A stretch of DNA of 64,000 nucleotides from Mucidula mucida (Eukaryota > Basidiomycota > Agaricomycetes > Agaricales > Physalacriaceae), in contig JADNYV010000009.1 in NCBI GenBank assembly GCA_015501055.1, forward strand, positions 248,001 to 312,000, given 5' to 3'. The position numbers and the translations under genes were made by a program. Of this stretch, positions 34,017-64,000 are shown piece by piece; position 1 is the stretch's first letter, and each line of letters begins with the position of its first letter. Below the pieces are notes generated by a model, which worked only from the letters and a program-made list of their open reading frames with translations, had not been told where the DNA came from and searched no databases.

Positions 34017-35347
34017 ATGTTCAATTCTTTCAAGCAGGTCGGCCGGCGGCTATACTCATATTGGCCACAACCGTCTTTGAAATATCATCCTGCTGATGTC
34101 TCCCAAGGACGATTAACGGGCAATCGACTTCCTGAAGCTTGCAAGGCACGTCTAGAGGAACTATTTCATCAGAACCAGAGACCGGACTTTGATGCTGTCA
34201 ATGCGCTCGCAATCGAGTTTAACGAGTCTTACAACGCGATCTGGTTCTGGTTTCGAAATCGGTGCGCGTGCCATTTACTTGAACGGATATTCCGAATACT
34301 CATTGCCGTAGTCGTGCGCGTCCGAAACCGCCGCCGGACAGAACGCCATTTCATGAAGCATTGGAAGCGGTTTACGTGAAGGAACGGTACCCAAAGCGCG
34401 ATGAACTAGAGACTCTAGCTAAGACCTGGAGAGAAAAGTATTCCACGGTGTATAATTGGTTTTACCGACGGTCCGTAATACTTTGTGTTCACTCTTTTAC
34501 AGCTCTTCCTCAATCGTCACAGGCGAAAACAGGACCAGGCTCTTGAGGAAGAGGCGGTTGTTGACAACCCAGAATTTTCCCCTCGCAAATACCGATTATC
34601 TGCTGCCTCGCGAGAGGTCCTTGAGGATTACTTCAATAACGACGAACACCCCAATCGCCGGGCTCTTGAACAATTATCTTCGGAGCTCGGTGAAACTTAC
34701 GAAAGAGTCTACAGATATTTCTGCAAGCGGTGCGCAGTCTTCCAAGTGAACATGACCCATTAATGGCTTTGAATAGGCGCTACCAGAAGAAGCAGCGCAG
34801 ATTGAATCGTGACAAATTGTCTATAGAATGCAAAGAAGCGCTCGAAGCGATCTACTTGAAGGAAGAATACCCGAAACGACAAACACTTGAGAGTCTGGCC
34901 AAGACGTGGAATACAGATTATCCCACATTGTATAATTGGTTCTATAGACGGTGCGGAGTGTTCCAACTTTTTGTCGTGCAACTAACGCCGTTTTCTGAAT
35001 CATCACAGGCGATATCGAGAGGCGACTAAAGCTCGACTATCCACCGCCGTGCTCAAAGTCCTTGAGGCTCATTTTGAAAAGGACCCGTCTCCCCGTCGGC
35101 CTGTCCTCCTTCAATTATCGACTGAGCTCAACAGAAGCTACGATACACTTTATAGATACTTCATCTGGCGGTACGTGCGATACTGCATGTAAGATTCCTC
35201 GCGCACTCATGGGGGTCTTTTCATAGGCGTTACAAAAGTCGCAAAGAATCTGACATGGTTTCGAAGCCTGGCCGCCCGAGACTACCAGAGCCTCAAATCC
35301 AGCGAGGCCGTGGACGTCCCCCAACTAAACAATTACTCGAGTTGTAG
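34017..35347 (+). CDS. Multi-homeodomain-like protein with two AT-hooks, 6 exons
   Basis: Predicted DNA-binding nuclear protein of 355 residues. Exons 34017-34261, 34312-34470, 34523-34729, 34777-34950, 35009-35170 and 35227-35347 join in frame; all five introns fall in the same phase (2), after the first two bases of an arginine codon. Each of the first five exons carries one helical unit of about 55 residues. Unit 1 is a real homeodomain, with LEELF in helix 1 and WFRNRRAR in the recognition helix (Trp48, Phe49, Asn51, Arg53). Units 2 and 4 resemble each other (YPKR...LAKTW...YNWFYRR), and units 3 and 5 resemble each other (QLS.EL..Y...YRYF..RRY); all four keep the aromatic pair and arginines but have lost Asn51. 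The C-terminus has two AT-hook cores, PGRPR and RGRGRPP. No signal or membrane segment is seen. The order 1-(2-3)-(4-5) points to duplication of a two-exon module. Confidence 0.75.
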
Positions 35348-35832
35348 TTCTCCTGTTGACCTGACCATAAGCTCACGACTAGTCTATGTTACGGAGTACT
35401 GCAACGGTGTGTTGAACCAAGCGCATCACAGATTCCAGAAGTAGAAGAGGCCAGAGAAGAAGAAGGTGTAGATTGGTCGTCAGAACCATCAGCCTGCTAG
35501 GTTTACGCTAGGTAAATACAAGACTGTCTATTCAACGCACCTCGAGTTCGCGTCGATATCATGTAATGTTTTTGAGACTCTGAGGAGGGCAGGGGAAGAA
35601 AGGAAAGACTGTACGAAGCGACGTTGCACTTCAATCGTATTTCCGTTGCACTTCAATCGTATTTCGGTCAAAGTGAAAGATCCCTGATTGTCACAAGATT
35701 TTCTGTCAAGCGCGTCTGACCACTTGGTTATAGAGGCGCCACGGAGCTCGGCTTTCGGAGCGAAAAGGCCGTTTCTTTGATTTGATTTGTTTTCCAAGTT
35801 CCAACTTGTCTCTGTACCACGTCTGTCACGAC
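35348..35832. other. Intergenic region with a short tandem repeat
   Basis: No gene recognised. A short direct repeat (gttgcacttcaatcgtattt) occurs twice in tandem at about 35623-35664. Confidence 0.4.
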
Positions 35833-38888: not shown

Positions 38889-39025
38889 GGTTATGGGCTT
38901 ATACTGCTGAAGGATCGACTCTACGAAGCGACTCTACAGTTAGGAACTAGCCGTCCCAGTGCACGCAGAGCGCGCCGGACACCAGAAACCTTATTTCTTC
39001 TTTCACATCCCTCTCTATCACCACC

Positions 39026-42000
39026 ATGCCACTCGAGGCTATCAAAGCTAAAACGATAACGGGTCTAGAAGCCCTCGACCTCAACAAGAAGAACTACGTC
39101 CGATGGAACGAAAGCGCCCTCGACGCGTTCCTCATCGCCGGCAGCAAAGAGTATGTCACCGGCGACGTATCGAAGCCCGACGCGTCCGATGCAGCCAATC
39201 TCGCGATCTGGACCAAGAATGACAGTATTGCGCAAGCGATGATTCGCATGAACATTGCTGCCTCGGAGAGAGACTACCTGCGCGACAACTGCAAGTGCAC
39301 AACCGCGAACGAGATCTGGAAGGAGCTCGAAAAACGCCACAGACAGAAATCGTCAACTCAGCCCTCCCTCTTAGACGACGCCCTATCCGCCAACATCTAC
39401 CGCGACGAAGACATGGTCACCACCGCGAATAGAGTCCGTGACATCTGCAAGCAGATCTTCGAGATCGGCACTCTTGATGCGGAAACGCTGGCGCGCGTCG
39501 TCCTACTTCGCGCCCTGTGTTCGGATCTCAAACACGTCCGCGAGAAGCACGAAGACAACGACAAGTCCACTGCCGCCGATATCGTCGCGTCACTCGAGAA
39601 GGAGACCCTGCGTCTGAAGGACGAGCTAAAGAAGGAGGCGGAAGAGGAGAAAGCGAATGCGGCGCTGACACAGAAGTCGCACAGCAAAGGCAAGGGCCAC
39701 ACTCATGGGCAGAACGGTCTATGTGAGACATGTGGAGGTCGTCACAGAACGGATGAATGCTGGGGAAGAGGCGGGGCCATGGAAGGCAAACGTGATGAGG
39801 TGTTGAAGAAGAGGGCTGCGCGACGCGAGAAGAACTCCCCCTCCCCCTCTCCTTCCTCCTCTGCCAACACAACTACGTCAACTCCCAAACCGCCAGATCC
39901 AAACAAGCCACGGTTCGCGTTCAAAGACTCCGCCGGTAAAACCGTCTACTTTACCATGGTCGAGGAGGAGCAAACAGCCGCCACCGCGTTTGTGACACCA
40001 AACTCCGAGCTCGAGGAGATATACGCCGCCCAACACGCACGTCGTGGCTCTGAGTCGTCCGAGTTTTCTATGCTCGCCGACGTCGCCAGAGTGTCCATTG
40101 ATTGGAAGCACCATCTGAAACCGGGCTACACCGTCGACGATGCTAGTACACCCGTCGCCCTTCAGACGAATCAGTACACCGTACTCAATATTGCAGACTG
40201 TGGACCTTTTGCCGGGGACTCAGGAGCGACGGTACACGTCTCGCCAGTACGCGAAGATTTTCACACTCTACATGCCATCCCACCACAGAAAATCTGGGGC
40301 GTCGGAGGAAACTACATCGAGGCAAGGGGCATCGGAGACATCCACATCCGCCAGGCGAAAGGCGCCACTCTCATCCTCCGCGATGTCTTATACGTTCCTC
40401 AGGCGACAATCCGACTCATGTCCATTGGCAAGATCTGCGACAACGGCTATACCGCCGACTTCGACGATGCTGGATTCTGTATTAGGAGCAAGACCAGCAA
40501 AGCAGTCGTCGCGACGGGAACTCGCCACAGCAAGAAGCTGTACACTCTAAACGGCGCAATACTTCCCCGTGTCAAGCACACTGTCACCAAGACAGCACCC
40601 ACTTCCAATCCCATTGCCGCCGCAGCCAATGCCAACACAAACACGGCTAACCTTCGCACCTGGCATGGACGCCTCGGCCATATCGGCATCTCCACAATCA
40701 AGAAGATGGCCCAACGCGCTATGGCAAAAGGTATGCCAGTCGACTTCTCCGAAAACCCACCCTCATGCGAATCTTGCATTCTTGGAAAGCAGACACGCAC
40801 GCCCGTGGCCAAAACAAGGGAGAATGAGCGGTCAAAGCGAAAGCTGGGAGTCGTATGTGTTGATCTTACGGGGCCGGAGGCGGTAGAATCCAAGCGACAC
40901 AATCGTTATTCAATGGAACTAGTCGATGAATATACAGACATGACGTGGTGCATACCGTTGCGAACGAAAGACCAGGCGTTCTCTGAACTTCAAAGATGGG
41001 AGAAGGAGAGGAAGCTCGAGTGCAATGAAGAGGTCGGCATATACAGAACCGACGGAGGCGAACTAAAAAGCGACCAAATGCGCGACTGGTTAGCAAAAAC
41101 CGGCACAAAACTGCAAGTCACCGCACCATACACTTCCGCGCACAACGGTATTGCTGAACGCCGTCACCGCACAGTATTCGAACTGGGAAGAGCAATGATG
41201 GCAGAGTGCAAAGCACCGGCATATCTATGGGACTATTTTGTGGAGACCGCGGGTTATGTGGCGCAGAGACGTCCGACGACGTACCAGAACAAAATGACTC
41301 CATATGAAGCATGGTACGGCGTCAAACCAAACCTGGCGCATCTCCGCGAGATAGGGTGCAAGGCATTCGTTCTGATCCAGAACAAGCACAACCCCAAGAT
41401 CTATGACCGTTCACTCGAGTGTCAGCTAATTGGGTATTCGTCCAACTCAAAAGCTTACATCTGCTACCATCGACAGACACATCGTGTAGTCACGTCATAC
41501 CACGTCGAGTTTATCGAGTCGCACCAGAAACACGCAACGCCACTACAGCCCGGACGCATAGTCAATGCCGATGATGATGATGATGACGAGGACAAGATGC
41601 CCGTACTGATTGAAGAGAGTGATGATGAAGACGAAGATGATGACAGCAGCGATGGCGAGGAAGACGAAGACAATCTAGGAGAAGACGGCGGCAATGTTTC
41701 CGATCCCGATCCAGATGTCCGAATACCCCGCAGGAGTCAAAGAGAGAAGCAAGCAGGACTCGAAGAACGTATCAGGAAGGCAGTCAGGGAGTCTACTGAC
41801 GCGGGGAACAGGCTCCGCGCTGATCGAGAAGCAAGAAAACGCGCACGTCAAGAACACATCCCAAACGAAGACGATGTTCACGCACTGATTGACGGGATCG
41901 TCCTCGCCACGTTAACTGAAGATGAAAATATCAATCTCGAATTCCCAGAAGAGCCCAAGTCGACGAAAGAAGCGCTGGAGAGCGACCAATCTGCAGAGTG

Positions 42001-43525
42001 GCATGCCGCGATTCAGGAGGAGCTCAAATCCATCCAAGACATGGGTGTCTATGATCTTGTTCCACGATCCACTGTCCCAAAAGGCCGCAAAGTGATGCGG
42101 GGCAAGTTTGTCTTCAGAACAAAACGCGACGCACTTGGCAATGTGTCAAGGTACAAGGCGAGGTATGTTCTGCGTGGGTTCGAAATGATATATGGGAAGG
42201 ACTACACAAAGACAACCTCACCAACAGCTCGTGCAGAGTCCCTACGCGTCCTTTTCCACCTAGCCGGTGCTCTCGATTACGAACTCACACAACTCGATGT
42301 GAAGACGGCGTACCTATACGGCGACCTCGACGAAACCACCTGGATGGAACAACCAAAGGGTTTCGAGGAAGCTGGAAAGGAGGACTGGGTATGGCAACTG
42401 AAGAAGGGATTGTATGGCATGAAGCAAGGCGGGCGAATTTGGAACAAGACAATGGACGCAACAATGAAGGAACTAGGATTCACTCAGCTTAGCGTCGAGC
42501 ACTGCATCTACTATCGGAAACGCGAGTCCGGTACCATATTTGCAGCTGTCCATGTCGACGACTTCACCGTAGCCGCAAGCAGTGCGGAGGAGGAAGTCCG
42601 ATTTGAAGAGGAGCTACAGTCAAAATGGCAGATATCCAGAGCCGACGCGAACTTCGTTATTGGGTGGGCCGTCCGTCGCGACAGAGAGAAGAAGAAGGTC
42701 TATCTCTCACAGAAGGCGCTTATCGATCGCATCATCAGAGAGTTCAACTGCGCCGACGCGAACCCAACCAAAACACCTCTTCCACCTAATACACGACTCA
42801 CCAAACGAGACCTCCCACAATCTGAGGAGGAGGGACGTCAAGCCGCAAAGCAGCCATACCGCCAGCTTGTGGGTGTCCTCATGTACCTCGCAATATCCAC
42901 TCGTCCCGATATCATGCATGCTGTAAGCACGCTCAGTCGTTTCAACAGCGGACACGGAGAAACGCACTGGAAAGCGGCGCTGCACGTTGTCAAGTACCTA
43001 AAAGGTACACGAGACTTCGAGCTGGAACTGGGTGGAGAAAACGTAGCGCGACTCACCGGATTTACCGACTCCGATTACGCTAACTGCCCGGATACGCGAC
43101 GATCAGTCTCCGGCTACTGCTTCTCCCTGGGATCGGGCCTTGTTTCATGGATGTCGAAAAAGCAAGCTACAACGGCGACGTCGTCCACAGAAGCAGAATA
43201 TATGGCAGCGGCGCCGGCAACAAAAGAGGCAGTCTGGATCCGAAACCTTCTACAAGGCCTGAACCAGGAACAGAAGAATCCAACTGTCATCTTCATCGAT
43301 AACCGCGGCGCCAGAATCCTCACCGAAGACCCGTCGTTCCACCAAAGAGTCAAGCACATCGAAGTCCAACATCACTACAGCCGAGAGTGCAGCGAACGAG
43401 GCATTGTCCACTTCGTTGATGTACCCACCAAGGACAATGTTGCGGATGCTTTCACAAAGGCGCTGCCAACCACGGTGTTCGAAAAGATGAGAGGTTGGAT
43501 GGGAATTGTACCCTCTCCGCGTTGA
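39026..43525 (+). CDS. Copia Gag-Pol polyprotein
   Basis: A single 1499-residue frame encodes all the proteins needed for transposition. In order: a UBN2-type gag region (about 1-230); a zinc knuckle CETCGGRHRTDEC (about 233-245, CX2CX3HX4C, one residue shorter than usual between the second Cys and His); the aspartic protease site DSGATVHVSP (about 400); the GAG-pre-integrase block WHGRLGH with CESCILGKQ; the integrase core with VCVDLTGPEA, YRTDGGELKS and HNGIAERRHRT; a very acidic linker (about 845-900); the reverse transcriptase with QLDVKTAYLYGDL and HVDDF (usual form YVDD); and RNase H with DSDYANC and SSTEAEYMA. No internal stop or frameshift is present. Confidence 0.95.
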   Translation: MPLEAIKAKTITGLEALDLNKKNYVRWNESALDAFLIAGSKEYVTGDVSKPDASDAANLAIWTKNDSIAQAMIRMNIAASERDYLRDNCKCTTANEIWKELEKRHRQKSSTQPSLLDDALSANIYRDEDMVTTANRVRDICKQIFEIGTLDAETLARVVLLRALCSDLKHVREKHEDNDKSTAADIVASLEKETLRLKDELKKEAEEEKANAALTQKSHSKGKGHTHGQNGLCETCGGRHRTDECWGRGGAMEGKRDEVLKKRAARREKNSPSPSPSSSANTTTSTPKPPDPNKPRFAFKDSAGKTVYFTMVEEEQTAATAFVTPNSELEEIYAAQHARRGSESSEFSMLADVARVSIDWKHHLKPGYTVDDASTPVALQTNQYTVLNIADCGPFAGDSGATVHVSPVREDFHTLHAIPPQKIWGVGGNYIEARGIGDIHIRQAKGATLILRDVLYVPQATIRLMSIGKICDNGYTADFDDAGFCIRSKTSKAVVATGTRHSKKLYTLNGAILPRVKHTVTKTAPTSNPIAAAANANTNTANLRTWHGRLGHIGISTIKKMAQRAMAKGMPVDFSENPPSCESCILGKQTRTPVAKTRENERSKRKLGVVCVDLTGPEAVESKRHNRYSMELVDEYTDMTWCIPLRTKDQAFSELQRWEKERKLECNEEVGIYRTDGGELKSDQMRDWLAKTGTKLQVTAPYTSAHNGIAERRHRTVFELGRAMMAECKAPAYLWDYFVETAGYVAQRRPTTYQNKMTPYEAWYGVKPNLAHLREIGCKAFVLIQNKHNPKIYDRSLECQLIGYSSNSKAYICYHRQTHRVVTSYHVEFIESHQKHATPLQPGRIVNADDDDDDEDKMPVLIEESDDEDEDDDSSDGEEDEDNLGEDGGNVSDPDPDVRIPRRSQREKQAGLEERIRKAVRESTDAGNRLRADREARKRARQEHIPNEDDVHALIDGIVLATLTEDENINLEFPEEPKSTKEALESDQSAEWHAAIQEELKSIQDMGVYDLVPRSTVPKGRKVMRGKFVFRTKRDALGNVSRYKARYVLRGFEMIYGKDYTKTTSPTARAESLRVLFHLAGALDYELTQLDVKTAYLYGDLDETTWMEQPKGFEEAGKEDWVWQLKKGLYGMKQGGRIWNKTMDATMKELGFTQLSVEHCIYYRKRESGTIFAAVHVDDFTVAASSAEEEVRFEEELQSKWQISRADANFVIGWAVRRDREKKKVYLSQKALIDRIIREFNCADANPTKTPLPPNTRLTKRDLPQSEEEGRQAAKQPYRQLVGVLMYLAISTRPDIMHAVSTLSRFNSGHGETHWKAALHVVKYLKGTRDFELELGGENVARLTGFTDSDYANCPDTRRSVSGYCFSLGSGLVSWMSKKQATTATSSTEAEYMAAAPATKEAVWIRNLLQGLNQEQKNPTVIFIDNRGARILTEDPSFHQRVKHIEVQHHYSRECSERGIVHFVDVPTKDNVADAFTKALPTTVFEKMRGWMGIVPSPR

Positions 43526-50100: not shown

Positions 50101-53100
50101 GCCGAGGACTATAAGCAGATTGGTCCAATTGTTTGGGAAAGGTATCTTGACGATGCAGAAAATTCAGTACTTGGTTCGGTAATTGCTCTTTTGACCCATT
50201 TGTACGTGTTCTGAGTACCTTCAGGCCTGTTTCCTAATCATGCAATGTGGTGAGAAGGCGCCTGCAGATCTGCAAGCGACTATAGAGGTTGATCTAGGCA
50301 GGCTAGTCTTTCACATCATCGTAAAAGTTTCATCTTGACTGAGATATCCTCTTAGTTTGGATCGCACTACCAAGTTCAATGCCATCTCAAGGATCAGCAC
50401 GTTGTCGAATTGGCGTTTTCAGATAGCCTCGCAACTCATCGTTGTTGACCGTTCTCGACGACCGTTCAAGCTAGCTCGCCCTCCGCTACCTTTCATCGCG
50501 ACCGACATGGGCACTAGTCACTACGTTCGGAAAGACGATCCGTCCGATATGAAGGATAACCTGCCTGCGGAAATGCGAAAGCGGTTGGCTGAGATTGGTT
50601 GGGTTGATGAAGACGCGCCTGTTAATCGACATATGGACAGGGTTCGAACGCCGTTCTCGTTGCTTCCAGTGCAGCAGCTGGATCGTCTAGACGCCAAGCC
50701 TGACTTCACGTCCTCGCCCCTCGCAAGCCCCATGGCCACACCTCAGAAAAGTCCACATGGGTTAAGCGAGCTGGACGAAATCACCCTACTTCGACGTAAT
50801 TCTAGTACCGGTGGTCCTGCGCACGGAGTCAAGCGTCGAGCCGTCTTTGTTCCGTCAGTGGCGCGCATCTTCCCCATGCTCACCTCCATGGTCTTTGATG
50901 ATGATTTTGCGGTTGCTCACGTCGCTCGTGCTACTATCATCGACCTCATGCGTAATGATCCGTCTTTGTTGACTCGACCGATACTCGATCTTCTAGCAGA
51001 GGACTCGAAGGATGTGTCCGTGGCGGTGTCGTCTTTCCGCGCCTTTTTACATGTCCGGAATACCCTCCCTCCGTCGATGGCACATCATATCTTCAATTAT
51101 TTGACCGGTTTTCTAAAGCACAATGCGAAGAACGCTACATCGGAGGACGCCTTGCACGACTACGCCTATGTCATACCCATTTTGGCCAAGCTAGTCCCGC
51201 AGGTCAGCGAGTTGTCTTTACGAGATTTCCGCCGAGCCAAGGTCGACTTGTACTTCATACCTTCCGGCTCCCTCTTCTTTTCCCCCACAGCAGCGAACCC
51301 GTACATGTTCCCGCAGTCTATGGACCTCTCTCAACATATGGACGACGTTCCGGCTCGTCTCAGCGCAGTGATCATGGTTCGCATCTCTCAGAATATGCTG
51401 TTCCTAGACATGTTGAAAAAGAACCCGCAAGACGTCCAGTTGGTCCGAAAGAGTATGGTTCGGCTCGTGCTCCCGACGTGGGACGAGTGTCCGGAAGCGC
51501 AAACTCTTGATGTCAAGGACTTCATTCCGCGGGAATCGAAGTTCAGAGGGAATGTTAACATGAAGGACTACAAGCTAAATGCCATGTCTGTCTTGTTATC
51601 ACGGAGCTACTTGCCTCTCGTTGCCCAGATTTTCCGCTCCATGTCCCGGCATCTGAATGACAGAAGTGAACTTGCTGTTCTGATCGACGGTGTGAATCGC
51701 ATTCTGCTGGCGCATGGAAGTGATATTGGTATTGTCAGTCAAGCATTGATAGGTCAGCGAATCACGTTTCAAGATTTGGGATGCATACTTATCATTCTGT
51801 ACAGCCCTCATGGTAGCCAGCACTCGTTTCCACCGATTGTTCATCTCGAGAGGTGGTTATACTCTCTTCATGCCAGTTGTCATGAAGGTTTATGCCGAGG
51901 CTGAACGACATTCCGGCATCCGATTTGCCATCGAGTACGCTGTGAATCGCTTCTTCGCTCACCACCGCGAGGCTTTTGTCTATCAGAGTCTTGACGTTAT
52001 CGCTCATATCATCGCCCTCCCGGAAGCCGATGCCCCTTGGATTGCAAAGAGCGTCTTCAGCCTCTTCTCTTCGCTGAAAAACGTCTCATGCTCAGACCCA
52101 GACGCTGCTGGTATACATGACTCGAACAAGTCCCAAGAGCGCGAAGCGCTTATGGTCATCACAGCGGAAGAGAAGCCGCAAACATTTCTGTCCTCTTTGC
52201 AGAATAACACAATCGCCAATCTAGCAGAGAAGGATTACGAATATGAGACTAAGCGACTCAGTGTCGACAACTTTGTTCGGCTCTTTCTGACCGTCATCGC
52301 TCATGATTTGACAATCATTCGCTCGGAGCAATTCTTGTGCTTCCTCGGATACCTGGCGCCTCATCTTTATCAGGCGTCTATGTCGTCGCGTCATGTTCTA
52401 CAGCAGGGGATTGAAGCGCTAGGCGAGGTTCTTCGCATTTCGCCCAAAGTCAAAGGTGATGGAGCCAGTCATCGTCCCGCCGAGGACATACCACAGGACA
52501 GTGCGATGGATGAGATTCTGGATCAACAGCTAAACGAGAAGTCAAACACACCAAGTGATTTTGTGTCCATACGCCTGCATTATTTCTCTCTGGTGACGCA
52601 GTTCACGCGAGCCGGCGGGCAGCTGTCGTCACAGGCATCCCATAGAACTATCGAGCTCGTCAAACTTGTTCTTCGAGAAGCAAATACTGTTCGGGTGAAT
52701 GATGCCATTTCAACTTTTATGGTGGACTTTACGAGGACGTCGTATACGCAGGAGAATAATCGTAGCGTGAAGGCTCTCATTGCTTTATTGAAGGACTTGG
52801 CACCAGTAATCCATTCATACGCTTTGACCATCGACTTCTCTGGGGTCTTCGATGTCATTGCAGATCTATGCACCAACCCGACTTATGCCAACGAGCCCAG
52901 CTTCTCGGAACTCGTCGTGTCTCAGATATGCGCCGCTGGGTTGAACGCGTGTCACCTAGCAGTAACGGAGAAAATGCTTTTCACGCTACCGTGCAGGACG
53001 TCTCTGATACGTCTTCTGAGTCAGGCCGTGTTCTTGTATGGCGCTGATGTCTTTGTGGAAGTCGAGAAGTATGCGCCTACACACGACTATTTGGTGGGGC

Positions 53101-54260
53101 TGGTGCTACCACTCACTCTGGCCATTAAAACTACGACAGAGCTAGATCAGGACGCTCGTCGGCCTGAGCCGTGGCACCGCGAAGCGCATCATCGCGCCTG
53201 GGTACGGTTGCTGTCGTTTACAATGTCGGCCTGTCAGAAGCCCCGTCGGTCTGCATCGGAATCGTCGCTGCTGGAACGCTCCAAGTCACAGGATAGTTCA
53301 TCGACAGATAAGAGGAATCGCCTCTTCACGCTCGTCACCGCCTTGCAGGTCTTGAAGGTCATCGTGGTGCGCGCAGAGAAGGACCTGTCTGCTTGTTTGC
53401 CTTCTGTATGGTTGAGGATTGCGAGTTTCTTGCGCATGATACTGGACGACGGCAATGGAGACTTCTCGTTTGGTCAAACTGATTATTCACCCTCTCCTTC
53501 CCCGACGCCTTCTCCACGTGCAAGCGGACATTTTGACTTTTCGACGTCTCCGTCGACCGCTACTTTCCCCGGCACCTTTCCCAGCTTCAACCAACATCGC
53601 ACATTCTTCAACCCTCGGGTTGTTGACTACTGCCTATGGTCCTTTTTGGAGCTGCTTTGTGCATACCGGACGCCTCTCGTTGTACAAATGCGTCTTTTCA
53701 TGAAAGAGAAAGTCTTCACGCTTGACTCTCAACTCCGCGCTCAACATCGGCCATCGCGACCCAACTCGTCGATCTTTTCTAAACCCAGAAGACGGCAGTC
53801 TGGCATGCCTTCTCCGGAGGGCTCACCGCGAATGCGACCGTCACCTTCATGGGAAGCGCAGGACGCCAGCATGTTTACGCTCGATCCGCATCGCACGCCC
53901 GTGTCTAATCGCACAGGACATCGCATCGTGCACCTTGGGCCTAGCACTGATAATACGTTCCGCCGGTCGTTGTCGCCGATGTCAAACTTTTCGGCGTCTG
54001 CTCAGGCAAAGTCGACAAAGGTGAAATCTCTGTCGCTTATCCAGGCGACGTATAGGAGGATACGGCTGGTGCAGAGTTGTATGGGGTATCAGTCGATGTT
54101 GTTGCCGTGGCCGAGTGGGGACGTGGAGGAGCCGCCGCCGACTTCGTGGAGTACTCAGAGGGCGTTGAAGGAGGTGGTTGATGAGACGAGGCAGCTGTTG
54201 GAAGAGTTTGAGGAGTCTTTTGAGATGGAGGGTGAGCCGATGGTGGGTAAGCCTGATTAG
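47147..54260 (+). CDS. Very large helical-repeat scaffold protein (possible UNC80 relative)
   Basis: One gene of about 2200 residues. Exons in the first part are 47147-48052, 48098-48892, 48938-49051, 49101-49463, 49508-49588, 49645-49733 and 49782-50178; the next border near 50220-50356 is uncertain; then long exons 50357 to about 51752 and about 51810 to 54260. The first 190 residues are Ser/Pro-rich and disordered (RRLFSFDSTKSSSSRRTPSE). Most of the rest is alpha-helical with the look of HEAT/ARM repeats, such as RAFLHVRNTLPPSMAHHIFN and VLLSRSYLPLVAQIFRSMSR. A second low-complexity region (SPSPSPTPSPRASG) precedes the last helical part. The length, layout and the conserved middle recall UNC80, an auxiliary subunit of NALCN channels whose fungal relative is Cch1, but I could not verify this. 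It may instead be another HEAT scaffold acting at the plasma membrane. Confidence 0.65.
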
Positions 54261-62471: not shown

Positions 62472-63737
62472 CTAAACAGTCATGGACGCGAACTTGGCCA
62501 ACACCGACATCAAGGCGGGCGGCTCTCTGAAGCGACGCCTAACTCCATCTCCAACCATCGCCTTCAAAAAACGTTCCTCGTCGAAGATAACCATATTAGC
62601 CTTGCTTTTCTTCTCTGTAGTTTCCTTCGCAAACATTTCTCCATCAAGATAATCCGTATTGGCCTTCCTTCTCTTCGCTCGAACAATGGCCAACAACGTG
62701 CTCCTGGAAATGAGGAAGACTTGCTGGTCAGCCAGGCCAGCTTGTGCAAGGTTATCTTGAACGTTGCGGCGCGTCATCTCTGCATAGTCCATGGAAATGC
62801 GCTTCAGGCGCGCTGCCTCGTCCTCATCCTCCTCATCCTCATCGTCGGCATCTTCTTCCTCTTTTATCATGTTCGCAATGTACTGGTCCGATTTTGACCT
62901 GACGATGTATGCAGGAATGCAATACTTCTTACAGGCCTTGAGTATCGCAATGTCGGTGGCGCAGAATCGGTCGGCAATGACCACAACAATGGCGTCAAAA
63001 ATGAACAGCCCTTGATTGTTGAAATAGTCCCAGTCGGATATATCGAGCGTTCCCGCGCCAGGAATATCGAACCAAAGGATAGGCTTGGAGGAATCGGGAT
63101 CAGCATAGCTGGCGACTACTTTGGTCGTCTCAACGGTGCCGGTTTTGGCGGCCCCGTCTTTGTTGGGAGATATCCCGCGTAGAGAATTAACGAGGGAGGA
63201 CTTTCCACAGCCGGATATGCCAGCTACGGCAATATGAATCATGTCTGGCGTGTAACCATAGCGCTTCTTCGTAGACTCGAATTGCTCCGGCGTAGGCCAA
63301 ACGTCTGGACGAGCACCGCGCTTGAGGTCGTCGCGCGCCTTCCGCGCTTCCTCTTCTTGGCGCTCCGCCTCCTGCTGGCAGCGACGCGCATGCTCCGCTG
63401 CTTCACGACGCTCCTTGTCTGCTTGCTGTGCCTTCTCCTGGGACTGCCGCGCTTCTTCCGCTCGTTCTTTGGCCTCCCGCTGGAAGCGTCGTGCATCTTC
63501 ATCCGACGCCTGTTGTTCGCGCTCGGCTGCCTCTGCCCTTTCACGAGCTTGCCGAGCCTCCTCCCCGAGCCTACGCGCATCCTCTTGACATTGGCGCCCT
63601 CTTTCCTCAGCCGCTTGTCGAGCGCGCTCGGCCTCTTCGGCGCGCTTAGCATTCTGAGCAGCCAAGCGCTCAGCTGCGTGATGTGATTCAATATCATGCA
63701 TGGTCGGGTTCTTTTTACTGCGCCCTCCGCATCCCAT
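62472..63737 (-). CDS. IRG-type (interferon-inducible-GTPase-like) GTPase with N-terminal coiled coil
   Basis: Predicted membrane-associated GTPase of 421 residues in one exon. I choose the ATG at 63737 because it gives MGCGGRSKK: Gly2 fits N-myristoylation and Cys3 palmitoylation; the open frame extends 41 residues further upstream but with a non-conserved sequence. Residues about 20-145 form a highly charged coiled coil (AEEARQARERAEAAEREQQA and similar heptads). The G domain follows: P-loop VAGISGCGKSS (about 174), a switch-like TGTVETTKV, the G3 motif WFDIPGAGTLDIS with the DxPG of IRG proteins, and a G4-like YIVRSKSDQ. An acidic run (DADDEDEEDEDE) and a helical C-terminal region complete the protein. 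In vertebrates IRG proteins disrupt pathogen vacuoles; fungal members have no known role. The GTPase match is strong, the immune role is speculation. Confidence 0.8.
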   Translation of the reverse strand: MGCGGRSKKNPTMHDIESHHAAERLAAQNAKRAEEAERARQAAEERGRQCQEDARRLGEEARQARERAEAAEREQQASDEDARRFQREAKERAEEARQSQEKAQQADKERREAAEHARRCQQEAERQEEEARKARDDLKRGARPDVWPTPEQFESTKKRYGYTPDMIHIAVAGISGCGKSSLVNSLRGISPNKDGAAKTGTVETTKVVASYADPDSSKPILWFDIPGAGTLDISDWDYFNNQGLFIFDAIVVVIADRFCATDIAILKACKKYCIPAYIVRSKSDQYIANMIKEEEDADDEDEEDEDEAARLKRISMDYAEMTRRNVQDNLAQAGLADQQVFLISRSTLLAIVRAKRRKANTDYLDGEMFAKETTEKKSKANMVIFDEERFLKAMVGDGVRRRFREPPALMSVLAKFASMTV

Positions 63738-64000
63738 TGTGTCTGCAAGGCAAACAATGAGAGAGGAACTGTAGGCAAAAAAATCTAACACACACTTTAC
63801 GATATGCCGAGCGAGTCCTTTAAAGGAGATGCAATGAGAGATTGATAGAGCTGGATACATATGAGCGGGATGAATAGCAATGGCAGAGAAGCACCGACTC
63901 TGCTGAAAAGCGTCTACCAGGAGCGAGTACCAGATGAGGCGAGAGTTGGGGTAAAGTTGAGAAGTGAAGTGATCATTATAAGACGTCGCTGAAGGATCAC

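Follow-up and report, generated by a model that had tools for sequence, protein, structure and literature searches.

How could a wood-decay mushroom of the Physalacriaceae, Mucidula mucida, come to encode five homeodomains in one protein, and where in the cell would such a protein act? Here, we report the analysis of a gene found in a 64,000-nucleotide stretch of the M. mucida genome (the window; coordinates given without a contig are counted from its first base) and of the family to which it belongs. Homeobox genes in fungi usually number fewer than a dozen, according to PMC4901127, and the multi-homeodomain proteins described in the literature searched are mainly animal.

Gene model

The gene occupies 34017-35347 on the forward strand and lies on contig C937 (597,724 bases of a 59.9-Mb assembly) as a single intact locus in the genome. 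A preliminary description had proposed six exons joined in frame, and this was borne out: exons 1 to 6 (34017-34261, 34312-34470, 34523-34729, 34777-34950, 35009-35170, and 35227-35347, the last coding for a basic tail and the stop codon) give a predicted coding sequence of 1068 nt for 355 amino acids plus stop. Introns 1 to 5 (34262-34311, 34471-34522, 34730-34776, 34951-35008, and 35171-35226; 50, 52, 47, 58, and 56 nt) are all of the GT-AG type and all in phase 2, and each splits the codon of the helix-3 arginine that ends the pattern W/Y-F-x-x-R, just as had been claimed. Each of exons 2 to 5 spans from the tail of one recognition helix into the next, and the resulting module is symmetric, so that its duplication leaves the frame intact. 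The gene is presumably spliced in this way in vivo.

The NCBI model of the same gene (P0001, 342 amino acids) uses a different 5' exon and is identical from residue 32 onward. Residues 1 to 31 of our model are conserved in protein P0002 of Hymenopellis radicata (16 of 30 aligned positions identical; alignment score reached by 0 of 5000 shuffles), and because of this conservation the start at 34017 appears better than the NCBI 5' exon. A gene-model artefact was considered for the whole layout, which P0002 shares, and was rejected, since the protein is continuous across the matching junctions in P0002 and in the paralogs.

Elsewhere in the window, a perfect 22-nt tandem duplication (35622-35665) lies between this gene and the next. 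A copia-type long terminal repeat retrotransposon frame follows about 3.6 kb downstream of the homeodomain gene (38951-43522, forward strand; 1524 codons with gag, integrase, and reverse transcriptase domains) and is apparently intact. Two frames at 50339-54257 (forward strand) match the UNC80 C-terminal region (PF20262) and probably form a single multi-exon gene, and a frame at 62475-63998 (reverse strand), which reaches the window edge, matches the interferon-inducible GTPases (IIGP, PF05049, E value 5.9e-28).

Homeodomain units and tail

The Pfam Homeodomain model (PF00046) matched the full protein in five stretches (E value 5e-33), and all five units passed the curated cutoff when scored singly (27.0 to 36.3 bits, against 22.9). 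Unit 1 (34134-34321, residues 40 to 85) spans intron 1; it is followed by unit 2 (34343-34532, residues 93 to 138), unit 3 (34602-34786, residues 162 to 207), unit 4 (34823-35018, residues 220 to 265), and unit 5 (35043-35236, residues 274 to 319). Structure prediction on each unit had been suggested in the preliminary description; the AlphaFold model of the protein contains five helix triplets in the predicted three-helix, helix-turn-helix arrangement of homeodomains, which are also the closest solved folds. The five-unit architecture is firm.

Asn51 is the base-contacting residue of the homeodomain. It is kept in unit 1 only, within the canonical recognition helix WFRNRRAR (WFRNRR in P0002), and is replaced by Arg, Lys, Arg, and Trp in units 2 to 5, so both earlier statements about these helices stand. 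The protein scored 22.2 bits against the HOCHOB double homeodomain, under its curated cutoff of 26.3, which two relatives pass (P0005, 26.8; P0006, 35.6).

Two AT-hook cores had been described in the tail. The second (RGRGRP, 35303-35320) holds a canonical RGRP core and is missing from P0002; the first (KPGRPR, 35264-35281) has PGRP as its core and aligns with KRGRPK, and thus with an RGRP core, in P0002. Of the two, one is canonical and the other, which deviates in the window protein, is conserved; the Pfam scan reported no AT_hook match at an E value of 10 or less. By inspection, the tail is absent from the other relatives, and the AT-hook part of the architecture is weak, consisting of one conserved core found only in this protein and its ortholog.

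Duplication history

Over 46 ungapped columns, units 2 and 4 share 29 identities and units 3 and 5 share 22, against 12 to 17 for the other eight pairs; the counts made earlier by eye (28 of 39 and 21 of 40) were right in substance. A DNA repeat of 121 nt (72% identity) covers the unit 2/4 pair. In a tree of units (38 rows, 46 columns; good support on 10 of the 35 inner branches), units 2 and 4 form a clade with support of 95/96 and units 3 and 5 one with 91/81, which together with the identities supports the proposed duplication of a two-exon pair, unit 4 matching unit 2 and unit 5 matching unit 3, and growth by the copying of intron-bounded exon modules. Window units 1, 2, 4, and 5 each pair directly with the equivalent unit of P0002, and both unit 3s fall at the base of the 3+5 group; the duplications therefore predate the split of Mucidula and Hymenopellis.

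Two single-homeodomain genes of M. mucida (contigs C382 and C493) are best read with a phase-2 intron in the matching arginine codon (WFQNR^RAK), a splice chosen among several open ones; they resemble the window gene in this intron and differ from it in having a single unit with Asn51 kept (WFQNRRAK). Because these two genes are split at the same codon, the intron that bounded the copied module is probably an old one of homeodomain genes. Other homeodomain genes have an intron in the Trp48 codon (C493, C218) or at an earlier position (C429). The symmetric, intron-bounded module would have come from a homeodomain gene whose helix-3 arginine codon was split by a phase-2 intron; tandem copying would have followed, and then one further copying of two adjacent exons (units 2-3 or 4-5). 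In ordinary homeodomain genes of the genome the codon at the duplication boundary is still split, which makes this array of one exon per unit a clean, readable case of intron-bounded module multiplication.

A second multi-homeodomain gene lies on contig C1 (41564-42616; L043, L039, and L052), with a copy on C103. Its three matches are of a different type (NSWFQNKR, TNWFRNLR), and two of the three homeodomains have phase-2 introns after Gly-Met, a parallel case at another position. Exon-module duplication may thus have happened twice, in the window-gene family and in the C1 gene.

Gene family

The five-unit layout, for which a search of other proteomes had been proposed, was found in H. radicata P0002 (all five units, 61% identity; the comparison is of protein sequences only), and the design therefore predates the split of the genera. 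The M. mucida genome holds at least 40 exon matches to PF00046, of which 26, by our count, fall in 13 family loci on 10 contigs and in four subfamilies: the window gene on C937, one locus each on C209, C451, C73, C122, C612, C694, and C383, two on C177, and three on C116. Some of these loci may be alleles or assembly duplicates. The remaining 14 matches lie on C382, C493, C86, C218, C429, C704, and C826 and in the three-match gene of C1 with its C103 copy. All four subfamilies are represented in H. radicata (P0002, P0005 to P0008, P0010, and P0013), and P0005 to P0008, each listed with a 123,095-base contig, probably sit together.

Spliced models of the paralogs repeat the intron rule. In C209, C451, C73, and C612, all four introns are in phase 2 at the codon used by the window gene (one of them a Gln codon in C73 and C612), as are all three in C116a and C116b; C383 has three such phase-2 introns, the first adjoining a Gln codon. 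Because only phase-2 donors in Arg (later also Gln) codons were admitted, the search for models was blind to other phases; the models of C209, C73, and C116a are letter-identical to NCBI P0003, P0004, and P0009, which is independent support for the phase.

Protein searches, whose word filter can miss remote relatives, matched 2 of 3312 (E value of 10 or less), 8 of 8000 (0.01 or less), and 7 of 6063 (10 or less) scored candidates, all from M. mucida or H. radicata with the exception of P0014 and P0015, both very closely similar to M. mucida copies. The preliminary description knew of no described fungal family with this layout. That still holds, as no fungal multi-homeodomain family of this kind was among the matches listed in the open-licence literature searched, with the addition that the gene belongs to a multigene family and is not a singleton. 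The combination of five homeodomain exons with a presequence-like N terminus (see below) was likewise not seen in the fungal literature searched.

Three family loci lie within 78 kb on C116, and the paralog loci of C209, C451, C73, C122, and C612 resemble one another across many kilobases. Spread by a transposon was considered and rejected: five open reading frames beside paralogs gave only APH-like and C2H2 matches (any match in two of five), and segmental duplicates or uncollapsed haplotypes fit the repeated segments better. Other sequences around the paralogs of C122, C73, C209, C612, and C451 (L009 to L023) are also repeated and partly inverted; frames there look kinase-like by eye, and two pieces scanned gave no Pfam match. 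Two inverted family copies on C177 (6489-14391, L011) are about 80% alike; both have a broken reading frame, and each has one additional homeodomain-like unit farther downstream.

In Agaricomycetes, the mitochondrial intermediate peptidase gene adjoins the HD genes of the mating-type locus. The nine Peptidase_M3 matches in the genome lie on C480, C1, and C116, with none on C937. On C116, a Peptidase_M3 gene at 283.5 kb accompanies the three family loci and resembles a mating-locus flank; it carries the motif DFVEAPSQMLENWCW, which we take to mark the saccharolysin/thimet type and not the mitochondrial intermediate peptidase, and a mating-type origin was dropped.

N termini

Residues 1 to 26 of the window protein (34017-34094) are free of acidic residues and resemble a mitochondrial presequence: the first acid is at residue 27, the net charge is +4, and so long an acid-free stretch was rare among shuffles of the same protein (P = 0.02). 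Across 12 family proteins, the first acidic residue falls at 26 to 40, and residues 1 to 25 carry a net charge of +2 to +5. In the 12 N termini compared with their own shuffles, the acid-free length gave P values of 0.005 to 0.04, compared with 0.28 for the alternative NCBI start. A charge test (first acid at 27 or later, net charge of +3 or more) was passed by 10 of the 12 family proteins, P0012 and P0013 just missing it. These 12 exclude P0001 (alternative 5' exon), P0007 (starting inside a unit), and P0014 and P0015 (longer models).

The presequence cleavage consensus with Arg at -3, RX(F/Y/L)|(A/S)X, as given in PMC4986872, occurs in six of the 12: RLY|S at residues 11 to 14 of the window protein, RYFS in P0009, RYLS in P0010, RRYA in P0011 and P0013, and RFLS in P0012. 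P0002 (RLHS) and the C209 group (R(F/L)S) fit only the looser form with Arg at -2 and lack the strict motif. As background, 7 of 49 ATG open reading frames of at least 120 amino acids in the window passed the charge test and 2 of 49 passed charge and motif, a background of few frames, some of them spurious. Nor are the tests independent, given the relatedness of the four subfamilies. A helical hydrophobic moment above own shuffles (P < 0.05) was found in only 1 of the 12 shuffled N termini, that of the window protein (P = 0.035), a result that lends the presequence reading no support. Presequence-like N termini occur in all four subfamilies, and these features are suggestive of mitochondrial presequences. 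Taken as the best single reading of the N termini, a mitochondrial address has about an even chance of being right.

Helix 3 and selection

In 31 family units (none from P0004 or P0006 to P0008; the middle unit of P0009/P0010, without Trp48, also omitted), Asn51 is lost in 27, and position 51 carries Arg in 11, Lys in 7, Asn in 4, and other residues in 9. Position 50 carries 14 different residues; positions 48, 49, 52, and 53 are nearly fixed, with Arg52 and Arg53 each in 29 of 31, and helix 3 is strongly basic in nearly every family unit.

The contact positions of the homeodomain were taken as 47/50/51/54, and a core set served to define the other exposed positions. Between C209 and C73, contact codons had a pN of 0.149 and a pS of 0.076 (seven changes and one), against 0.021 and 0.069 for the rest of the homeodomain. 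Among recent copies, 6 of 20 contact positions had changed, compared with 8 of 150 other exposed ones (Fisher P = 0.002), in a test that is partly post hoc, positions 43, 50, and 54 having already been seen as least conserved in 15 unit pairs and the copies having been inspected first. Pooled over five comparisons, the counts were 31/80 and 142/600 (P = 0.006), an excess that 4.6% of random four-position sets also reached and that two comparisons carry (P0003/P0004, P = 0.002; P0009/P0010, P = 0.003). It was not significant in P0005/P0006 (0.26), P0003/P0005 (0.09), or P0011/P0013 (0.8) and was absent between the window gene and P0002 (8/20 versus 49/150, P = 0.6).

The dN/dS ratio was 0.40 to 0.46 in four comparisons of C209/C451 with C73/C612 copies (Fisher P = 0.003 to 0.008), and as judged from these ratios the related five-unit copies are under purifying selection. 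Other pairs gave 0.30 (C451/C209, P = 0.04), 0.62 (C73/C612, P = 0.49), and 0.61 (C116a/b, P = 0.05); C122 (frame broken), C694 (about three substitutions from C116b), and C116c (no full model) were left out.

Proposed function

We propose, with confidence evenly balanced between right and wrong, that the protein carries five homeodomain-fold units behind a presequence, is imported into mitochondria, and binds mitochondrial DNA or RNA at multiple sites. It would enter the organelle and then lose its presequence, and the array, whose putative ligand is suggested by fold and charge, would bind at several sites. Since units 2 to 5 have lost Asn51 while Arg53 stays, binding would be largely backbone driven, and unit 1 would account for most of the sequence preference. 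Location, nucleic acid binding, and any cellular role are predictions made from sequence.

The preliminary description had suggested a multi-site DNA-binding or chromatin architecture protein. A nuclear transcription or chromatin protein, in which unit 1 reads a specific site and units 2 to 5, together with the AT-hook, strengthen binding to AT-rich DNA, is possible but doubtful. The homeodomain fold, the canonical helix of unit 1 with WFRNRR conserved in P0002, and the AT-hook core conserved between genera all fit nuclear DNA too, and basic stretches of homeodomains could act as nuclear signals, a point against the mitochondrial reading. Yet Asn51 is absent from most family units, including units 2 to 5, the relatives lack the AT-hook tail, and presequence-like N termini extend to all four subfamilies; because the window protein and most relatives start in this way, a nuclear chromatin role is not favored over a mitochondrial one. 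The loss of Asn51 and the great variability of position 50 could also mean that the units keep their fold and serve mainly as protein-protein modules of a scaffold, in whichever compartment, and the DNA-facing positions are indeed not more conserved than other exposed ones; the retention of Arg52 and Arg53 and the strongly basic helix 3 make this improbable. Least credible, and very improbable, is a family without lasting function that was amplified with repeated genome segments and is decaying. Several loci do lie inside large repeated segments, the copies on C122 and C177 are frame-broken, and two pairs have ratios of 0.61 to 0.62, but the window gene is single, intact, and kept in another genus, and the four comparisons of five-unit copies point to constraint.

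Within the mitochondrial proposal, the family might play in a fungus the part that restorer-of-fertility PPR proteins play in plants, its exon-modular homeodomain arrays binding mitochondrial DNA or RNA of a selfish or variable kind while copies arise, are lost, and change at base-facing residues. Clustered copies, frame-broken beside intact copies, and changes at 47/50/51/54 between recent copies would be hints of this; the comparison of window gene and ortholog, without excess, and the three further nonsignificant comparisons speak against it, and we consider it unlikely.

Comparison with known systems

Among the homeobox genes of Caenorhabditis elegans are some that encode as many as 12 homeodomains, several being divergent and lacking orthologs in related species (CEH-100 has 12, and CEH-83 and ZAG-1 have 5; PMC4448998). 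They resemble the window protein in their several divergent homeodomains, lineage-specific origin, and partial clustering; they are animal proteins, and the account in PMC4448998 describes neither a presequence nor a one-exon-per-unit rule for them and gives no indication that the arrangement is homologous. DUX4, also with tandem homeodomains, was the best Foldseek match (E value 1.5e-3) and the best-ranked multi-domain sequence match after Pit-1 and differs in having two units and only 22 to 25% identity. Both DUX4 homeodomains bind DNA specifically. The vertebrate ZHX/HOMEZ proteins have up to five homeodomains, in ZHX beside C2H2 zinc fingers; no zinc-finger family was among the Pfam matches of the window protein at an E value of 10 or less. 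Plant restorer-type PPR, mTERF, and mitochondrial HMG proteins combine a presequence with repeated helical nucleic-acid-binding units and occur in clustered copies. Their folds differ from a homeodomain array, and they are comparable in presumed way of working only, the function here being a prediction. If the presequences work, homeodomains would have been taken up as repeated modules for nucleic acid binding in the organelle, a role that otherwise falls to PPR, mTERF, or HMG proteins.
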